Shown one piece after another: positions 20,334 to 60,800 of a stretch of 62,727 nt of DNA (positions within the stretch are counted from its first letter, which is position 1; each line of letters opens with the position of its first letter). Origin of the DNA: Dinochytrium kinnereticum (taxonomy: Eukaryota; Chytridiomycota; Chytridiomycetes; Chytridiales; Chytridiaceae); assembly GCA_027604005.1 (NCBI GenBank), contig JADGJT010000100.1, positions 2,334-65,060 of the forward strand. The letters are read 5' to 3'. The notes beneath the pieces are model-generated. The model was not told the DNA's origin. It did not search any database and saw nothing but the letters and a program-made list of their open reading frames with translations. The position numbers were made by a program, and so were the translations under genes.

Positions 20334-23075
20334 ATGCAACAAGGAGGGCATCATCGCTGGAGCACTGCACCCCGCCCCTCAATCTACGCCGCGGAGACAC
20401 CACCTCCCGTCCCTTCCCTGCCCCTCGAACTCATCGCCAGGATCCTCTCCTTGGCTGCCACCTCCCTGCACTCGCTCACCACCCTCTCCCTCCTGAACCG
20501 CTCAATCCACTCCCTCATCACATCCTCCCCAACATCAAAGCTGGATCTCCTTCTGGCCAGATACGGCCGTCGAGGCGCTTTCCTCCACCTCTCTGAGATT
20601 CTTAGGTTCCCCGACGCAGAGTCAACAGTCCAACTTCTCTGTCGGAAAGGGTGCGCGTTAAAGTGTCCAGAGATTGGCCGATCCAATATTGCAAGTTTTA
20701 AAGGAGGTGCTGGCAACCTCTTGGTCCATGACTGGCAGTCATGTCCATTCATGGCTATTTCAAGATCCAGTAGGGGCTGCAAGGTTGATGAAGACGGGCT
20801 TTGCAGGATCCTTGCGGCCATGATGAAGGCGGGGATGGACATGGAGAGCCATAATCGGATGGGTGTCTATCAGGAGTTTAGGAAGGAGATCGAGAGGCAC
20901 ATTGTTGATGCGGGGAATGGGAAACTTCTTCTGGCTTTACCCCCCATAGCAAGAGACGGAGCGACCGTGGGAGATGGAAGCCCTGAGCCCCCCCTATTGG
21001 TGAAGACTGCCATCGACAAGGGCTTACTCCCCATCATCCGCTTCGAATCCCGTCGCAGACGACGCCGATGGGGAAGCAGGAAGATTCTTGAAATCATTGT
21101 TCAGTCAAGAGACATCACATTCTTGGAGGAATACCTCTCTTTCGACCTTGAGACCTGTCAGTTTCGCGATCCAAAGGAGAGAGCCCGAGCGGTCAGCTCG
21201 CAGACTCTCACCGCTTCTCCTCTTCGAATCGCTATTGAGATGGGAGATGTGGAGGCGGTCAGGGTGCTTTTCAGCCATGGGTTCGCCATCGGCGGCGATG
21301 TGGATAAGATCGTCATCTCCTCCCAAACACCTGGGGCGCTGGCCGCTCTGATGGAAAAGGGATGGACCCCAACCCAACCCATCCTTCTCTCATCCATTCC
21401 GTCATCACCTCTCTCCGTCATAAAGCATCTCATCGCCATCTCACCGCCGTCCTTCATCTCCTCCATCGTCTTCACAAAGTCCATCCACTTTGGTCGCTCG
21501 GACTTGATTCGTCATCTTGTTCAATCGTTTCCAACTTGCCGCCCAATAGGCTCCTTAACCGAGGCCGTCACAGCCGTTCTCACATTTCTCCTTTCCCCAA
21601 ACCTCTCACCCGCTGGGCCGTGCCTTTCGGATTTTCTTGAAACCGTTCGCATCCTAGCGTCCTTTGAGGCGCCAACGGAGGCTATTATGAGAGCTGCGTG
21701 TCAGCCTCACTCGTGTGTGGAGCTTATTGAGATTCTATTGGATAATGGTGGAATCTTTTGTGATGCTTGCTGCATGATGGCTCCACGTAGCGACATGTTT
21801 GAGAGCCTCTTTCAAATATTAGAGCCTAGCTGGGAGACCCTTTATTACGGATGTCTCCGTCGATATGAATCAATTGTTGAGAAATCGCTTCACCTCTTCA
21901 TCCCCATCGACGCGTGGCATATTTCTGCTGCTGCACTAAGCGGTTCGATATGCATTTTACAAACCATCTTATCATCATGCTCCCCAACCGTTTTTTCTCG
22001 GTTCCAAAAAAACTCCTCGCCCAATCCTGACCTTTCGTCTCCGAATCGACACGTCAAAGCCCCAAATCCTTTGCTTAGTCTTGTTCGACTTGGAAACCAT
22101 AGAGCCGTTTCGATGCTTCTTGATGCCGGATTGAAGGCAGCAAAACGCGATAAAGAGTTTGTCATGGCTGCTGTGGAGTCGGGGTGTGGCGAAATGGTTC
22201 GCGTGATTGTTCACGAAGGGTTTGATGTGGATCCTAGGACGGTTGATGTGGCGTGTCAGAGGCGGTTTAGCGGCATTCTTCAAATCCTTCTTGAGGACGC
22301 TCGCATTGAACCTGCGCAGTATCACCTCTCACTCGTTCTCAAAGGTCGATTGCCGAGTGGCTCGAGACCTGATGACGATGCAACGTCAGAATGCATCAAA
22401 CTTCTTATTCGAAATTCGTCGAAGCGGAATCGAGTCATTGTGCCAAGGGATGTGATCCTTGCTGCTGTTTCTGAGGATAGGGTCAAGGTTGCCACGACTC
22501 TTATCCAAGAATCTGATAACGAGATTATGGTCCGGCTTGAAGATGCGCTGCCCATGGCTTGTAGATCTGGCAATGCGGAGATGGTTTCAATGCTGTTGAG
22601 AAACGGTATTCGACCTAAGGGTGGTGCCTTCTCTTTTTGTTCGTCAGGGTCAGTATCAGACGGCGCTTACCGTATTCAAGATATCATCTCAACCGAGAGG
22701 GTCGGAGTTGCCTTATTCCGTAATCGCGCTATCCAGCTAACCCCCACCGCCCTGGAAGCCTTTGCGAAGATGGGTTACGCATCGCTTGTGAAAGCCACGC
22801 TAAGACGTGGCATAAAAGTGGATTCGACAGCCTCCCTTGCCCAAGCCGGCACGCGAGCCGTGCTTGACCTTTTGATTGATTCTTTGAAGGGTGAAGGATG
22901 GGGTAAGATGTCTTGGAGGCAGTTTTCCACTCATGTGATGAGTTTGGAGGTTGCGAGGAGGTTGTTGGTAGGTGGGTGGGTGGAGGTTCCCAAGTACGGG
23001 GCGGTTGCGATGCCGTTTTTGAACGGACATGTGGTGGTCGCGCAGGCTTATGATGAGCTCTTGTACGGATCTTGA
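20334..23075 (+). CDS. Intronless F-box-like / degenerate ankyrin-repeat protein
   Basis: One uninterrupted exon encodes 913 residues. Residues about 27-63 (LPLELIARILSLAATSLHSL and on) fit an F-box, which in SCF ubiquitin ligases binds Skp1. The remainder is a series of about 30-residue helical pairs of ankyrin type, with recognisable units such as SPLRIAIEMGDVEAVRVLFS, RAVSMLLDAGLKA, GEMVRVIVHEGFDV and ACRSGNAEMVSMLLRNGI. Many units are degenerate. The likely role is substrate adaptor of a ubiquitin ligase, but no partner is visible. It is the only long gene here without introns apart from the next one, which fits a lineage-expanded or retrocopied family. The start is the first ATG after a GC-rich leader. 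An AATAAA signal follows the stop at 23082. Confidence 0.75.
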   Translation: MQQGGHHRWSTAPRPSIYAAETPPPVPSLPLELIARILSLAATSLHSLTTLSLLNRSIHSLITSSPTSKLDLLLARYGRRGAFLHLSEILRFPDAESTVQLLCRKGCALKCPEIGRSNIASFKGGAGNLLVHDWQSCPFMAISRSSRGCKVDEDGLCRILAAMMKAGMDMESHNRMGVYQEFRKEIERHIVDAGNGKLLLALPPIARDGATVGDGSPEPPLLVKTAIDKGLLPIIRFESRRRRRRWGSRKILEIIVQSRDITFLEEYLSFDLETCQFRDPKERARAVSSQTLTASPLRIAIEMGDVEAVRVLFSHGFAIGGDVDKIVISSQTPGALAALMEKGWTPTQPILLSSIPSSPLSVIKHLIAISPPSFISSIVFTKSIHFGRSDLIRHLVQSFPTCRPIGSLTEAVTAVLTFLLSPNLSPAGPCLSDFLETVRILASFEAPTEAIMRAACQPHSCVELIEILLDNGGIFCDACCMMAPRSDMFESLFQILEPSWETLYYGCLRRYESIVEKSLHLFIPIDAWHISAAALSGSICILQTILSSCSPTVFSRFQKNSSPNPDLSSPNRHVKAPNPLLSLVRLGNHRAVSMLLDAGLKAAKRDKEFVMAAVESGCGEMVRVIVHEGFDVDPRTVDVACQRRFSGILQILLEDARIEPAQYHLSLVLKGRLPSGSRPDDDATSECIKLLIRNSSKRNRVIVPRDVILAAVSEDRVKVATTLIQESDNEIMVRLEDALPMACRSGNAEMVSMLLRNGIRPKGGAFSFCSSGSVSDGAYRIQDIISTERVGVALFRNRAIQLTPTALEAFAKMGYASLVKATLRRGIKVDSTASLAQAGTRAVLDLLIDSLKGEGWGKMSWRQFSTHVMSLEVARRLLVGGWVEVPKYGAVAMPFLNGHVVVAQAYDELLYGS

Positions 23076-23480: not shown

Positions 23481-25493
23481 ATGGCCCAACAGCAACAGCT
23501 CGCAGTCCACGAAGACGTCTCCTGCGACAGCTGCAACCACCACCCCATCATCGGGACACGATTCATGTGCGGGAACTGCGTCGAGTTTGACCTCTGTTCA
23601 GCTTGCATTGGTTCATGCAGGTCGATTCATGATCCATCGCATGTCTTTCTCGTGCTGGATCGGCCCACTGGTGTCAGGCTGGTCAATCCGGCGCTTCCCA
23701 TCCTCTTTTTTCCGGCGTCAACTTCCCCTTCCATCACCACCACTCCAGTAACGGTCATTGGACGTGGGCCTATCTCTGCGGGATCGTTGCCACCGCAGCA
23801 GCCGCTGCCTCCTCCTCATCAGCAGCAACAGCCTCGTCCGTCTTCTGCTCTCCTTTCGGATGCTTCTTGGGATGGTTTGGTGGGGTCTGCAACGTGGGAG
23901 GGAGGCTCCCCTGTTGCTAATGTCGCCACACCGCTCTCCACCGCTTCGTCCACCCATCCTCCTCTTCGATTTCCCACCCCAGTCATCTCGACACCTCATC
24001 TCACCCCATCCAGACCGTTACCCCCATTAACTCGATTCTCGGTACGCTTGTTGCAGTCCCTCCTTCAGGTATCGGTTAAACCTGAGCCTCATGTCATCTT
24101 CCCCATCTCCCTCTGGTGTTCTCTTGGTCTTGCGGCGATTGGCGCTCGAGGACGAACGTTCTCGGAGCTTGTTAGGATTTTGGAGGTCTGCGATGCTGCT
24201 GGCGGCACCCATTCTTCGTCGGAAGATGGGAGGAAGAGAAGGGGTTGTGATGAGGAGATGGCTCAGGATGATATGCATCTTATTTGGGAGACTTTGGTCT
24301 CGGAGATGCAGGGGTGCATTCCGAGGTTCACTGTTTCGGGTGGTGCGGGAAATCCAATGGTGCCTTCCACCACGCTTCGGATAGCTAATGGCGTTGTGGT
24401 GGATAGACGGTTGCCTCTCATGCCTGGGTATCAAAACCTTGTTGGGACTGTGTTTGGGGGGAGGGTGTTTGGTGTGGACGTTGCGACCATGACACCGGGA
24501 AGTGGGGACGATGTTCTTCATCCTATGAGGTCTTGGGTCTATTCAAAATGCTACAATGGCTACGGACCTCCGCTTGCTCCACCGCCACCGGGTCCCTCAC
24601 CACATCATAGCCGTCTGGATTTCTCGAACCGTATGTCAATCTTCTCGGCCCTTCACCTGTCAGCACCTTGGAAGAATCCACCGGATGTTGTTAGAGAGGA
24701 GGGTGGACCCGTGCTTGTCTTTCGAGATGTTGAGACCTGGGGTGTTGGAAGTTCCATTGGAGGAAGAGAGGCGTGTCGCGCCTTTCGGATTCCCCTTGGT
24801 TTATTGCCCGTTGCCCCAATTAAATCATCAAAAGACACCGCCCCCACACCCCTCTCGAAGAAGAGGGGCACCTTATCCCTGCTCATCCTCACCACCTTGG
24901 ACGACCGAGAAGGTTCATCGCCCTCAATTCTAATCCCATACCTTCCTCAAGCCCTAACGGCAGTTCTGGACGGTGGAAACCCACCGGCGGTGGTCTCCCT
25001 TCGCCTTCCCGCCCTGAGGTCCCTGACTCCCCCGACCGCGTCGCTGGTCCCCGCTCTCAAGGCGCTGGGCATGTCAACGGCTTTCGATGCCGCTGCCGCT
25101 GATTTTGGCGGGATGCTCGTCAGCGATGACACCTCTGGTGCTGGATCCGCTGCATCTGGGAAGAGGCCCCGGAAAGCTGGTGGAGCCTCTGGGGAGGGGG
25201 AGGGGAAGGAAGGCGTTGTCTCTGTGGTGGATGTGGGGAACCCTGGGGTTGGAGGCGTTTGGATTAGGGTGGATGGGGAGGGTGTTAAGGCTGGACCTGC
25301 GTTTGGTGGAGGGTGGGAAGGGATCAAGGAGGAGATTTTGGGGGATTCTGGGATGGCGAGGAAGGGTGGGGGAGGTGGGGGTGCGGATAAACTTGTTTTG
25401 GAGATTGGGAGGAGGGGGGGAGGGGAGTGGGGGATGGTTGCGGCGATTGTGGAGGAGGAGGTTGGGGACTTGGTTATGGTTGGGATTGTTTGA
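23481..25493 (+). CDS. ZZ-type zinc finger fused to a serpin-like domain
   Basis: One exon encodes 670 residues. Residues about 11-50 form a ZZ zinc finger (CDSC, CGNC, CSAC, then a His-containing SIHDPSH). A Pro/Ser/Gln-rich linker follows. From about 188 to the end the sequence follows the serpin fold: helix A/B region ISLWCSLGLAAIGARG, LRIANGVVVDRRLPLMPGYQ, the ALHLSAPWKNP strand, and VSLRLPALRSL then LVPALKALGMSTAFDAAAADF. The hinge-like IRVDGEGVKAGPAF and the last strand follow. There is no signal peptide, so it should be intracellular. The hinge has Gly-Pro where inhibitory serpins have small Ala/Thr residues, and a Gly-rich stretch sits where the reactive loop should be. I infer a non-inhibitory serpin or a scaffold. 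The 5' half of the linker is very proline-rich. It converges on the RING-VWA gene. Confidence 0.8.
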   Translation: MAQQQQLAVHEDVSCDSCNHHPIIGTRFMCGNCVEFDLCSACIGSCRSIHDPSHVFLVLDRPTGVRLVNPALPILFFPASTSPSITTTPVTVIGRGPISAGSLPPQQPLPPPHQQQQPRPSSALLSDASWDGLVGSATWEGGSPVANVATPLSTASSTHPPLRFPTPVISTPHLTPSRPLPPLTRFSVRLLQSLLQVSVKPEPHVIFPISLWCSLGLAAIGARGRTFSELVRILEVCDAAGGTHSSSEDGRKRRGCDEEMAQDDMHLIWETLVSEMQGCIPRFTVSGGAGNPMVPSTTLRIANGVVVDRRLPLMPGYQNLVGTVFGGRVFGVDVATMTPGSGDDVLHPMRSWVYSKCYNGYGPPLAPPPPGPSPHHSRLDFSNRMSIFSALHLSAPWKNPPDVVREEGGPVLVFRDVETWGVGSSIGGREACRAFRIPLGLLPVAPIKSSKDTAPTPLSKKRGTLSLLILTTLDDREGSSPSILIPYLPQALTAVLDGGNPPAVVSLRLPALRSLTPPTASLVPALKALGMSTAFDAAAADFGGMLVSDDTSGAGSAASGKRPRKAGGASGEGEGKEGVVSVVDVGNPGVGGVWIRVDGEGVKAGPAFGGGWEGIKEEILGDSGMARKGGGGGGADKLVLEIGRRGGGEWGMVAAIVEEEVGDLVMVGIV

Positions 25494-26107: not shown

Positions 26108-28266
26108 TTAACCCTTTGGAACCATCTTTCTCGAGCTATTCTGCTGATAAGTCGCAGACACCTTTGACTGCATCCGCATCCCAAGCGCCGAGCCATCCCC
26201 CGCAGCCGCCGGGTCCGAAGATGAAGAACTGTAGACAACTCTTTGCGAAGTATACGTCGAAACCAAAGCTTTCTGTGAGGCCCTGTGCCCAGCACTTTGA
26301 TACTCCTGAAAAGTGGAGGAGAACCGTGACGTCGCGCGATCAACATCTTCTAGAACCGCGAGGAAAAACTGCCAATCTTCAATCGCCAAGGAGCTCGCCT
26401 CAGGTAGAGGATGGGAGTCGATAGTGTATCGAAACGTGGAGGATGAAGAACGACTTGCGTTGGAGCGCTCGGGTGGTGGTGATGGAATGGATGAAGTCAG
26501 GAGGTTTCGATCGATTCCGGTGGCAACGAGGATCCCGTCGATGATCTCCTGACGTGTTTTCAACATTATGGCTCTTGCCGCCTTGATTTGACTGTCATCT
26601 GCTTTGGCGTTCGCCTCCCGGATTCCTTTCAACGCGTTGAGTCGGAGCAGCTGTCTGTTGATCTTCGTGTCGGGCTTGACTCCGTCCGGTCGTTCCGAGG
26701 ATCCTGAATGAAAACTTACAACAAGAGGTTCTGAGGGGCGTGGAGGGTTTAATCGACCGTCTTGAACCGAAGTGAAGGAATAGTCTGCATGGAGCAATTG
26801 AAGGGTGGCGGACGCTGGGTCGGCGGGTGATTCGTATTTCCCAAGTTCAAGTAAGACAATGGCATCTCTGGTCTCTCCCGCAAAGAGATCACCAAACTGT
26901 ATGGTGGCTTTCTGACGCTCACGCTCATCGACTGAGTAATCGTAAGAGCAGATGATCTTTGAAATCTTTATGGCGTCTCCTCGACCAACAGAGAGCTTCA
27001 CAGTGACTTTTTGGAACATTGTGGATTTGATCCCACCAATGCATCCGGCGAACGCGTCCTGAACCATGTCTGGGGATCGAATAAATGTAAAGGTTCCACT
27101 CTTCCCGGCAAGGCGAAGCAGCATGGCATCGTCATGATCGACTCCATAGCCAAACGTGAATATGGCAGTGTCAAGGCTCGCGGCTCTCGATACAAGCTCA
27201 TCATACTGACTACCCTGCATGGAATCCTGTCCATCGCTAAGAAGCACGATCGCACAGGTCCTGTTTCTGGTTCTCCTTCCACCCACCATCTTCAAAGCCG
27301 CGTCTAGACCAGCGTAAATGCTGGTCCCGCCGTCGGCTCCCAGCCCATTAACCGTCGCGACCAGACGCGCTTTGCTGCTTTGTCCGGTACCACTTGGCCC
27401 TGCTTCGGAGCTGCACAAAAGGAATGGAGCGACCACCTGAGCGGAGGAGTTGAACTTGACAATCGACAGACGGTCGGTCGGGGCGAGGGCGTCAACTATG
27501 TAATGGAGAGTTGACTTTACCGAGTCGATTTTCGCTCCGGTCATTGACCCTGAGACGTCCACTACAGTGATCAAGTCCAGGGAAGCTAGAGCAAGGTCAA
27601 CGACTGAGGTGGTTGGTGTCCCAACGGTTACCATTGCCGTGAAGCTAAAAGACTTATTCGGAGATTTGGTAGGAATGGATGGGTACAGCCCACTGAGAAC
27701 GACTGTTGGAGTCAAATCTGAGATGGATGAGGTGGCGGTTCCATCTGAAATCTGCACGTTGTCATCATCAGCGTTCGTGAAGGTGGGCTCTTCAGGTAGA
27801 CGCTCCCAATGATAATATTGAACAGGCTGAGCACGCCGGTCATATGCAGGCATCAATTGCTGAGCAGGGAGGGCATTGACAAACGTTGCTTGCGTAAGAT
27901 TCAATGGAGAAGCCGGAGAGACGTTGGAGCCAGCGTCAAGCCCCGTGAAAGAAGCCCGACAAAGAGGGCACCGTGCGTTTGCAGAGGCCACGCATTCCGT
28001 GTAGCAAGCCATGTGCATAGAATGACCACAGCCTGCGCTCAATTAAGGGAAGACGATATGAATCAACGGAAGCGGTGACGTGGACAAACAGTACCTGGAT
28101 TGATGATGGGAAGGCCACCGCGCAGCTGGCACGGCTGCAGGCAGACGGGGCAGGACTCGACGTCCGCATCCACCAGCGTTGCGGAGGAAGTGAAGTTGTT
28201 GAGTGAGCGCCGGCTCGCTCTCTTTCCGAGGACGGGGGATGACGGCCTAGAGGGGTTGTTGCCCAT
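26108..28266 (-). CDS. RING-finger protein with von Willebrand factor A domain
   Basis: Two exons (28266-28095 and 28032-26108) give 698 residues. A C3HC4-type RING (CPVC, then CGHSMHMAC, then CPLC) spans the intron at residues about 38-85. A VWA domain follows with a complete MIDAS start (DVSGSMTG), the TDRLSIVKF strand, GGTSIYAGL and the ALVLLSDGQD-type strand (here CAIVLLSDGQD). After a beta-sandwich-like region come C-terminal helices (RQLLRLNALKGIREANAKAD). This layout resembles plant WAV3-type E3 ligases and other RING-VWA proteins. By family knowledge it would be a ubiquitin ligase whose VWA part binds a partner through a metal ion. It has no signal peptide, and the MGNNPS start is a possible N-myristoylation site. 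It shares a 205-bp divergent promoter with the lipase gene. Confidence 0.88.
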
Positions 28267-54891: not shown

Positions 54892-57800
54892 TCATGCCAC
54901 AGTAAGCCCAAACAAGCTCATCCTTGTCCTTCCACCACACACTATCGACGTGTCGACATTGCACCGAATGTTGCAATCGGACTCGGGGGCAGCAATCCTC
55001 TTGCTCACGTCTCTTCCACACCAACATTCACCACCAAACTCGACCCCCGCGAACGTCCATCCCCGGTTCGCGGCTAGGCAGGCTTGTTGACAGGTTGTAG
55101 GGGTAAGACGGGTTCCTACGAGTCCTCCAGGGAACAATCGAGGAACAGAGGAGCCATTGAATGTACCTCCGTTCACAGTGCAACCGATGTAGGACCATGG
55201 GCTGGTGGTGGGAGGCGCGGTAGTAATAGCAGGAGGCGGTACCGGGGACTGCACGGGATCCTCTGAGATAGGGGTTGGAGCTGTGGTCGCAAGAATGGTG
55301 CTGGTGGTTGAGGTGGTGGTAGGCACGATGTATTGGTACAAGGAGAGACGGTTGCCGCCACCGCAGATCTGAGAGCGATCGGCCGTGCAGGGCATAGAGC
55401 AGCCGGCTTCTGGGGCGGCCACGCGTGCGTTTGCAGACGATCCGCACCAGCATTCACCGCTATTTGGGGGAAATCAAAGAGTTAACGTGAGGTGACGTGG
55501 TTTCACTTTGTCAATGAAGTGAAACACGAAGGTATAAGAAAAGGAGACAGGACTCACCCAAACTCCATTCCAGCAATCTGGAATCCTCTGGCTAAGCAAC
55601 CTGCCTGGCAGGTCGTCACAGTGTATCCGACCCCTGGAAGCTGACCTGCTGGGAACAGACGAGAAACGGGTTCACCATTAAACGATCCCCCGTTCACTGT
55701 GCAACCGACATACTCCCAACGAGGGGTGGCAGAGGCGGTGGCGGTGGCGGATGCATCGACACTAGTGGTGATTGTTATGGTGGTGGTGGGTACTTCCACC
55801 CCAGTATCCACCTCCGTGGTTGACGTCGCTGAGGTAGTAGGGACAGACGTTGTTGCGGTGGAGGAATAGGTGCTCGAAGAAGAAGACGACACCGCAACAT
55901 TGAAAGCAAATAAGCTCATGCGGCTGCCACCACCGCAGATTAGGGACCTGTCCGCGTTGCAAGCCATGTTGCAATCACGTTCCGGTGCAACAATGCGGTT
56001 CGTGATGGATCTTCCGCACCAGCATTCGCCACTATCGACACAGAACCGACAAGGGAAGAGCATTAATAAAGCCAATTATCGTAGAGAAAGAAGAAGCAAT
56101 TTGAAGGCTGGTAGCAAGTCAAGAAAAAGTAAAAAGGAGGAAAGAACCTACCCAAACTCCACTCCAGCAAACAAAAACCCTCTTCTATCCGCTAGGCAAG
56201 CCGACTGACATGTCCCAGGTGTGTACCCCACGCCTATCAACCCATCTGGGAAGAGCCTCGACACCTCTGCCCCATTAAAGGATCCACCGTTCACCGTGCA
56301 CCCCACGTAAGTCCACGAAGAAGAAGACGGAGTCGCGGTGGCCGTGGTTTGGGTCGTGGTGGGTACTTCAACGGTGGTGGTTAGAATGGTCGAAGGGACG
56401 GAAATCATTGTAGAGGTCGAGGACGTGATGGTGGTGGTGGAAGGGGAGGCTGCGAAGGCGAACAGGCTCAGGCGGTTGCCACCGCCGCATATTTGAGAAG
56501 TGTCGGCCGTGCATGGGGTGGAACAGTCGGTCTCCGGGGCGGGGATGCGAGATGATATAGATTGACCGCACCAGCATTCACCGCTAAGGAAGAATGAGAG
56601 GAGGATCGGTAAGTATGATTAAAAGTGTAAAAGAGAAACAGGGAAGGACGCAGGGGAAAAAAGAAGGGAAAAAAAAATGCAACAAAGGACGAGCGGTTTC
56701 CGAATCATCAAGGAAAAGAGGATGGGTGAAAGGGTGTGGGGCTGAAAGTGGAGGTACGGGTTTCCAAGCACATGCCCTCAAACGGGTAGGAGAATAGAAT
56801 GAAACATACCCATACTCCAGACCAGCGAAGGTAAAGCCACGGTTATCAGCCAAACATGCCGCTTGACATGTCGCAGGGGTGTATCCCGTGCCCAACAAAC
56901 CAGCCGGGAAAAGTCTTGGAACCTCTCCACCGTTGAAAGTTCCACCGTTCACAGTGCACCCGACATAGCTCCATGGTGAAGACGGGGGTGACGTTGGAGA
57001 CGAGGTGGGGGAGGATGACGTGCTAGTCGTGAGGGCGGTCGACGTCGCTATCGCAGTAGTGGTTGTAGTTGTGGTGGTAGAAGTGGAAGAGATCGTCGTT
57101 GTCGTGGTAGGAGACCCAGTGACCGGGATGATAGCCGGGTTTACGTAAACATTTAAAGCCCCAGGTCCGCCACACAACGCCGTGCTGTTACCCCTGCAAG
57201 CCAACGTGCATTTCCTGCTCCCACCTCCAGAGACGGGAAGCCTCGTCCCACACCAACACTCACCAGCAAACTCAAGACCCGCCACAGGATACCTTCCCTG
57301 AGGAGCCGTCCAACAGTTTTGAATGCAGAGTTGAGGGGTCATGACGCTTGACTGACCATTCGTCAAGGCGTTCGTCAGGATCCTGGGGCCCGTGTACTCA
57401 AAGCAGTCCACGTGAACCCACGTCTCGAAGGGGGGTGGGAGAGATGGGAACCCGGCTGTACCGGAAAAGAAGAAGGAGCGAACTCCGCCTTCAGCATCGT
57501 CAGAGTTCAGTGGGAGTTCGCCGCGGACTTGGAAAGATTGACCTCCCAGCACCGTCGGTGGCCTTGAAGGGTGAATGAAGGTGATAGGGACCGTGACGCT
57601 GTCGCCAGGATTCAGCTGCAGCCCTTCACCGATATCGTTAATGTTCCCCTGTATAGGACCCACTTGAGGGAGCTTGACCTTGGTCAAAGTAAGCCTAGAG
57701 GCTCCCACGTTCAAAACGCGGACCCTCATGACTTTGGTCTGGCCCGGGAAGATGGTTCCAAACTCGACCGTTGTGTTTGGGCTCCATGAGCCATCGGGAA

Positions 57801-60800
57801 GCTCTGACTCGAGCTTCATGATGGGTGGGCCCGCAGAGGTTCCTGAGAGGGAGATTGTACCAACACCACCGTTCGTGTCGATTGTGAAGGATCCAGTAAA
57901 GGTTCCGTCCTCTGTAGGCCTAAACTCAACCGAGACGGTGATGGAGGAGTCGCTTTCGATCACAGTATTCGAAGGTGGGGGGTTGAGGACTCGGAAAGGG
58001 CTCACGGCGTCGGGTAAGATGAGGCCCTTAATGACGAGGGGCTCGATGCCTTGATTCGCGATTTGGACAATGGAGGTCACGGCTCCGGCGTTGGTGATAA
58101 CGTTGCCGTATACAATGTTTGGTGGGGAGAGGAGGAGTCGAGGCGTCTGTGACTTGCCACTACCCCTGAGAGTGGCAAAGGATAAAACGCGTGCTGAGCT
58201 GGAGGTTTGAACCGTTAGCTGAGCGGTAAAAGAACCAGTAGATGTCGGATCCAGTGTCACAGGGATGAGGAGGCTTTGACCCTTGGTTAAAGTCAGTGGG
58301 AGGGTCGGACCGTTGGGAGCGAGGGTGAAGTTGCGATTGGAAATCTCGATAGCAACCACCTCGACCGTGTCGGCGATGACGGTGAAGTTAATGGTGCGGG
58401 TTTGTGGTTGACCCAGGATAACGAGCCCAAAGTTAGTGTCGGGAGCTTTGAGGGGGAAGTTGTCGGGAGATCCAAATGCAAATAGCCTTCCGTCCGATGA
58501 GACAGTGTAGACTTTACCGTTGCCGAAAGCTGGACGGAGAAACTTGTTGTAAGGGTAGAGGCCTGAGGGGGTGTCGGAGAAGAGACGGACAAGCTTCTGA
58601 TCGACGGGGACGGCACGGTAGGCGATGAGGGAGCCAGAAAAGTCAATGTACCATACGATGCCAGTGTCATCCTGGCCATCAATGGAGGTGACGACGGGAG
58701 AGCCAGAGAACTGAAAAGTGTTCTTGTCGGATTGCCCAGCATAAAAGAAGCTAGGGTTCCCCTCCGAATCCACCGCCCACTTGTAAGCCTGAATCGGGTT
58801 CCCAGCAGGCCCAAAGTACATGTAACCTCCGTTCCCAGGGAAAGCCGTTACCTGACCAAACACCGAGTTGTTGGCCTTCACCTTTTGAAGGAAGAGATCA
58901 CCATTTCCGGGTCCTTGCTGAAATCCTCCCAGATTATCCACGTCAAAGATGAAGATGTCACCAGGTTTCCCGACCGCCGCGCCAATTCGCTTCACCTTAT
59001 CCGTGCTGAAGACACCAGGAACGTCGTTCGGGAAAAGGGTGAACCCTCCAGCACCGAAATCACGGTCTCCTCCATTCATTGCCTGGTAGTTAAACGGCAA
59101 GAAGTAATCTGTCGGAGAGATCTTTCGGGTAAACCGGTTGATCGAGAGCTCGATTACGGCGTTTCCAAGAGTCTCGGGGATCTGATTTCCAGGTGTTGGA
59201 GAGCGGACCGGGGAGGCGTAGGCGTTTCCCGTGACAACGTACATCTTATCACCTACCGCCGCGACGCCGTTACCGGATTGCCAGATCCCAGCTCCACCTT
59301 GATTTGTGGGGTTGGCGTCGGTCACCCAAGCAGTCACAACGTCACCCGTCGGAGCGTCGAAGCCGATAAGCCAACCTATGGCGCGGAAGAGCCCACTGTA
59401 GATGAGAGGTCAGTCTTATATTTAAGTACAACACCCGCAGCCAAAACAAAAAGGTAAAATTGTGGTAACCCTCAGTTGAAGGGACGGAATAAAGGCTATA
59501 GTGGCTAATTTTGCATAACAAAAGAAAAGAAGAGAGAAAGAAGGGAGAAAAAACGTGAAGAGAAGGAAACTTAAAGAAAAGGAAACCGAATGCTCACCAA
59601 TGTGACCCAAATGCTACATATACCGTATTATCCAAAAAGTGAAGCCCTGGCCTCTGAAGCTGGATACCACCGTTGAAAGTAGTTCGAGGATCGTTCTCAG
59701 CTGGGGTGCCCTGAATGTCTCGTGGGTAGTTCGGACGTTCCGCAAGTGTCAGTACGTCGACGGCATGGATTCGGTAACGTCCGTTCTCCAAGCCTGAAGA
59801 GGTTCCGGGAGCATAGGTCTACGGAAGGAAGTTAAATAAACGAAATTTTGATCCTCTTCTTTTTTGGTGCAGGCAGAAAGTCTAGGGGAGGAGGGACGTA
59901 GGTTGTATATTGGAACGAGGTCTAATCATCACGCACCTTTGACAAAAAGTAAGCCGTCCCTGTGGCGGGGTCAATGACGGGGCTTCCGGTCACGCCGACG
60001 TTGGAGTTGATATCACCGCACAGCGGGATGTCCTTGAGATCAGAAGAGAGAAACGGCACCCATATGTTAAGTTTTGCAGCATTCACGAAAGTCACTAAGA
60101 AAGAGAAAAAGAAAAGAAAACACTCACCCTCAAAATGTCAAATGGAGTGCTGAGGTGACGAGATGCAAGGATGGCGCCGGTGATTCCATCGACGGAGTAA
60201 ACTGGATAAGACGCGAGGCGGGACGGGTCAAACAAGTAAGACGGAGCAACAGAGGAATTTCAGACTTACTGTTGTTATTCATTGTTGCAACAAAGACGAT
60301 GGTCTGACCAGATTCGGTGGTGTAGACCATAGGAGCTGCGTAGTTCTGTAAAAGGGTAATAAGAAATAGGCAAATACTTTAGGAATTATGCAACGAGGGA
60401 GGGAAAGGGTTCTGAGTTGGATGAAAGTGAACTAATCGTAAGTAAAACATGAAACTTACAGTGCCTGGCGGAACGCTGTCAAGAGAAATGCGTGTAAACG
60501 CATACAGTCAGTAATTCATACCAAACACAGGAATCAAATCGAGGACATGCACTCACCCATTGATCGTAGGAAGACGGGTAAATCCTTGAGGGAAGATTCG
60601 ACCAAAGTTCGGGCTTCCCACCACCGCAGGATCCAAGTTCGCCGTTGGGCTGATTGTGTTTTCGGGGAGAGAATGCGATGTGAATGAGTATGGCAAAAGC
60701 AGACAAGTATGGTTAAGAAAGAACAGGCATTAGAAATCGATGCCTCACATGTGGCCATGGCGGAGCGAGCTTCCAGTGAGTGTGAGGTAGTCAAAGGCTG

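Follow-up and report, generated by a model that had tools for sequence, protein, structure and literature searches.

Fungal serpins and the ZZ-serpin gene

Fungal serpins are poorly known. Celpins are fungal serpins, and those of anaerobic fungi carry a second domain, CBM_10 (PMC8778642). A myco-serpin of 365 residues, with a serpin domain at residues 13-365, is described for Metarhizium, with relatives in Aspergillus, Fusarium, Microsporum and Trichophyton, and the same source states that only a Piromyces protein had been reported as a fungal serpin before (PMC13236867). A tree of the whole superfamily leaves the fungal serpins without a class (PMC8233489). The window analyzed in this study, which is the whole stretch of 62,727 nucleotides from contig JADGJT010000100.1 of Dinochytrium kinnereticum, contains a gene that encodes a ZZ zinc finger followed by a serpin domain (ZZ-serpin gene, window 23481..25493, plus strand; all parts of the protein given below lie on this strand). 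The protein shares with the Metarhizium myco-serpin that it is a fungal serpin, and with celpins also that the serpin is combined with a second domain. It differs from celpins, which are cellulosome members, in that its partner domain is a ZZ finger and that a secretion signal is not evident. CBM_10 is not found in the protein, for which ZZ and serpin are the sole Pfam matches at E<=1. The sequence-only reading of this DNA regarded serpins as rare in fungi, which stands broadly, but such serpins were already known, as indicated by the celpins and by the Metarhizium protein and its relatives. It also knew of no described ZZ-serpin, and none is named among the matches listed in the literature on ZZ and serpin, on fungal serpins and on Chytridiomycota serpins. 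The novelty lies in the joining of known domains, and in the co-occurrence, in a single genome, of a version that looks inhibitory with one that looks disarmed.

Open frame and serpin domain

The ZZ-serpin gene is a single frame of 670 codons that runs from ATG to TGA and is open throughout. PF00569 matches residues 10-45 of the protein (1e-7, 32.1 bits, above the curated cut-off of 21.4) and PF00079 matches it with 4e-10 (39.9 bits, curated cut-off 27, best stretch 184-335), so that the proposed fusion of a ZZ finger and a serpin is borne out. The codon usage of this frame is better than that of the other forward frames in seven of ten segments, and is the best of all six frames in five of them, the glycine-rich end included. 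The strongest backing comes from the diverged C-terminus. The open frame and the codon usage together provide a moderate argument against a pseudogene or mis-joined genes. It is highly improbable that two neighboring genes are read as one, because there is no stop between the ZZ and serpin domains, no in-frame intron is found among the donor motifs scanned, and the same architecture is seen in a second gene, described below, whose public record is one protein of 566 residues. The coding score gives some room to such an artefact, since it shows no preference for this frame at residues 1-67, 135-201 and 336-402.

The serpin domain spans residues 178-670 (24012..25490). A custom serpin hidden Markov model (HMM), built from 87 sequences with both proteins of the Dinochytrium kinnereticum genome left out, scores the protein at 48.5 bits in two collinear stretches, residues 184-336 (model 8-124) and 503-549 (model 257-301), and gives no report for 200 shuffles or for the reversed protein sequence. 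When the sequence of the serpin part is simply compared with those of solved structures, the match is marginal (best 6.7e-4). In the structure model the serpin core is predicted at high confidence, and the fold spans the first helix to the C-terminal strand and looks complete, as the sequence-only reading had expected of a structure prediction. The protein thus shares with the serpin superfamily (PF00079) the predicted fold and the two HMM-detectable stretches in order, but differs from it by a degenerate hinge, a longer loop and fewer of the highly conserved columns.

Two basic clusters in this domain are candidate nuclear-import signals: RKRR at residues 251-254 (24231..24242), which sits between the predicted helices 224-233 and 258-278, and KRPRK at residues 561-565 (25161..25175), which is located in a Gly/Ser-rich insert. 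The peak 12-residue hydropathy near the N-terminus is 1.1, as compared to 1.95 in one serpin judged to be secreted. The protein is probably cytosolic or nuclear. The position of RKRR resembles that of the DNA-binding interhelical M-loop of MENT, a chromatin-binding serpin, and the helices flanking it are presumably the same pair as those of the M-loop. To our knowledge, MENT has no ZZ finger. Among the activities of MENT are inhibition of cathepsins V and L and condensation of chromatin (PMC2648895).

Second ZZ-serpin gene in the genome

The assembly from which the window derives (22.4 Mb, 558 contigs) was searched with PF00079 in six frames, with introns ignored. Two matches are found, the window gene and a gene on contig C399, and both have an N-terminal ZZ finger, whereas only two of the six ZZ matches of the genome have a serpin. 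Thus the fusion is not a one-off. The second ZZ-serpin gene (locus L013, 5623-7335, minus strand) encodes 570 residues, with a ZZ match of 1.1e-10 and a serpin match of 2.9e-51. Its product matches HDU67_006923 of Dinochytrium kinnereticum, which is recorded as a single protein, with 100% identity over 99% of the query. Contig C399 also contains a frame for an XPB-type helicase, consistent with ordinary nuclear sequence. In the ZZ finger of the second copy, the last Cys pair is separated from the His pair by an insert. A 42-base GT-AG piece within this insert could be removed in frame, but its donor is poor and the sequence is left as read.

No hidden serpin halves are seen in the listed frames at the four other ZZ genes (contigs C53, C363, C342 and C228). 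The C53 gene is Nbr1-like by eye. The ZZ finger and following extension of the C363 gene (locus L016, 4677-5051, minus strand), whose next frame is EF-hand-like by eye, resemble those of the ZZ-serpins, and this gene is a candidate donor of the ZZ finger.

The protein searches depend on exact words common to query and target and cover a limited number of scored sequences, so that distant chytrid ZZ-serpins may escape them. With this scope, the window protein has no match other than itself among 7,987 scored candidates. The second copy finds itself and nine other serpins, none of which is listed with a ZZ domain, and its ZZ region, for which there are 10 candidates, finds itself and five ZZ proteins without a listed serpin domain. 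The sole match in IMG/VR (locus L019) was dropped, because the listed frames contain no clean serpin frame on the matched strand.

Hinge and reactive-centre loop

The hinge of inhibitory serpins has Glu at P17, Gly at P15, Thr or Ser at P14 and small residues at P12-P9. Hinge conservation is a feature of inhibitory serpins and is weaker in non-inhibitory ones (PMC6379291). The hinge of the window protein (P17-P8, residues 599-608, 25275..25304, placed by alignment) is GEGVKAGPAF, and that of the second copy is EAGTEAAAVT. Both were compared with 61 other aligned serpins. As these originate from prokaryote genomes or from metagenomic or unlabelled records, and were collected on the basis of their similarity to canonical serpins, the contrast is possibly sharpened. 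Glu at P17 and Thr or Ser at P8 are present in all 61, and Thr at P14 in 59. The window protein departs from the inhibitory pattern with Gly at P17, Val at P14 and Pro at P10; Gly at P17, Pro at P10 and Phe at P8 each occur in none of the 61. The atypical hinge noticed from the sequence is therefore real. An Ala-to-Pro change at P10 reportedly converts antithrombin to a substrate, but no weight is given to this as evidence. The second copy fits the inhibitory pattern except for Val at P9, which is common to 23 of the 61 serpins. The reactive-centre loop region of the window protein, from P15 to the conserved Pro-Phe position (25281..25412), is 44 residues long; that of the second copy has 30 residues and those of the 61 serpins have 24-34. 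It is glycine-rich, also in agreement with the sequence-only reading, and its predicted local distance difference test score (pLDDT) is below 50 at residues 609-636.

These results suggest that the window copy has quite probably lost inhibition. Val at P14 alone was rejected as a sign of this loss, because SERPING1, which is classed as inhibitory, has Val at P14 in a published table (PMC6379291). Two P14 mutants of a scabies-mite serpin lost chymotrypsin inhibition (PMC3394726). The argument for the loss rests on Pro at P10, the replacement of Glu at P17 and the greater loop length. It is doubtful that the window protein is still inhibitory and acts on an intracellular protease with an unusual hinge. 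Gly at P15 and Ala at P12 are kept, Val at P14 is shared with SERPING1 and the predicted fold looks complete, all of which would fit such an activity, but the residues at P17, P10 and P8 are without precedent in the comparison set and the loop exceeds the longest of this set by 10 residues. The proposal that the fold is non-inhibitory thus probably holds for the window copy, but not for the ZZ-serpin architecture, because the second copy keeps a canonical hinge.

ZZ finger, extension and linker

The ZZ finger spans residues 10-54 (23508..23642). It shows the ZZ arrangement of zinc ligands, with three Cys pairs followed by a His pair, and the likely ligands are C15/C18, C30/C33, C39/C42 and H50/H54, as assigned by eye from structure alignments. 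Its best matches among solved structures are the ZZ fingers of HERC2 (1e-10) and p62 (1.7e-9), followed by fission-yeast Nbr1 (5.6e-4). The matched HERC2 structures are SUMO1- and histone-H3-linked constructs and those of p62 are peptide-linked constructs. D129, N132, R139, D147 and D149 of p62 matter for N-degron binding or degradation (PMC6098011). These residues correspond to D16, N19, R27, E35 and D37 of the window protein, as mapped by eye on the printed alignment, so that four of the five are identical and D147 is replaced by Glu; the second copy has D, G, R, D and D, also by eye. In fungal Nbr1, cargo is bound by ZZ domains, and an acidic pocket of ZZ1 of fission-yeast Nbr1 reads the cargo N-terminus (PMC9233695). 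The most likely role of the ZZ finger of the window protein would be to read protein N-termini, because it is related to those of p62 and HERC2, carries most of the p62 N-degron residues, and resembles the cargo-reading ZZ of Nbr1. In the Pfam scan the window protein has no PB1 or UBA domain.

The ZZ finger is followed by an extension at residues 55-79 (23643..23717), for which local alignments give counterparts after the ZZ fingers of the second ZZ-serpin and of the C363 gene. The low-complexity linker at residues 80-177 (23718..24011) is rich in Pro, Ser and Thr (composition over 80-183) and is predicted to be disordered, with pLDDT below 50 for residues 59-171.

Possible roles and origin of the two ZZ-serpins

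The two genes probably represent a small family of ZZ-guided serpins, in which the second copy would be inhibitory and the window copy would be a non-inhibitory docking or decoy protein. The ZZ finger of the window protein would be a docking element, with an exposed protein N-terminus as its most likely partner, and the flexible linker would join it to a complete serpin fold whose hinge may no longer drive fast loop insertion. The second copy would be a ZZ-guided irreversible protease trap, while the window copy may bind a similar ZZ partner and, as a substrate-like decoy or scaffold, perhaps also a protease that it does not trap. The chances are about even that the window copy is such a docked and disarmed counterpart of a trapping second copy. 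It is improbable that ZZ-serpins are cytosolic suicide traps guided to cleavage-exposed N-termini or to Nbr1-type hydrolase cargo, with the trapped complex passed to N-degron or autophagy pathways and the window copy acting as a competing pseudo-inhibitor that sets a threshold. A ZZ finger on a serpin, if it acts as proposed, would represent a novel means of directing a protease inhibitor within the cell, and the presence of both copies in one genome allows the roles of the ZZ finger and the hinge to be tested side by side.

Several observations weigh against a docked, disarmed member of a ZZ-serpin family. The ZZ finger is modelled at low confidence in the predicted structure. The HMM covers the serpin domain in two stretches only, and the middle and the C-terminus rest on the structure model (alignment with 61 true serpins), because this region is too diverged for the HMM. 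The window serpin is very diverged: of 51 highly conserved columns, it keeps 22 and the second copy 40. Val at P14 of SERPING1 indicates that the hinge change is tolerable in part. The case for a common origin of the two copies is also weak. Their serpin domains give 26.6 bits with each other in BLAST, as compared to matches of up to 50.4 bits to bacterial serpins. A genome search with the whole window protein reaches the second copy through the ZZ finger only (residues 7-44), and in the tree a branch with 88% support separates the window serpin, together with a bacterial serpin, from the second copy and all others.

It is a tangible possibility, compatible with the other readings, that the ZZ finger was fused twice, independently, to different serpins. 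The serpin domains are not grouped in the tree, and each is closer to some bacterial serpins than to the other copy. This tree, however, contains 51 of the 91 sequences and places both ZZ-serpins on very long branches, and appears to be weak evidence against a common origin. The two proteins have the same domain order, with an N-terminal ZZ finger and a similar extension after it, and their ZZ and extension regions align at 35 of 100 columns in a local alignment. The similar extension is no proof of a single origin, because the C363 gene, in which no serpin is seen, has it as well. The two copies share rare serpin residues at 8 of 267 columns of the HMM alignment, which ranks first of 90 (mean rate of the others, 0.0067); a bacterial serpin is next with seven, and on the MAFFT alignment the number is nine, tied with the same serpin. 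There is a slight lean toward a single ancestral fusion.

The window serpin has the longest branch of the tree (2.03). This length, the loss of 29 of the 51 conserved columns, the glycine-rich insertions and the only moderate backing of the frame by codon usage, best of six in half of the segments, would be expected if the gene were a decaying duplicate, the serpin half of which is drifting and functionless on its own. Such decay is unlikely, because the frame of 670 codons is intact, its diverged C-terminus receives the strongest backing from codon usage, and the structure model gives high confidence for the serpin core.

Neighboring genes

An uninterrupted frame of 913 residues with ankyrin repeats (window 20334-23075, plus strand) adjoins the ZZ-serpin gene upstream on the same strand. 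A frame with a VWA domain (9.5e-19; window 26108-28042, minus strand), the N-terminus of which is RING-like by eye, is convergent with the ZZ-serpin gene. Farther away, a single frame (window 56584-59337, minus strand) combines a match to a WSC domain (3.3e-17) with one to HYDIN/ASH-type Ig domains (2.5e-11), and thus oddly pairs a cell-surface domain with a ciliary-type domain.
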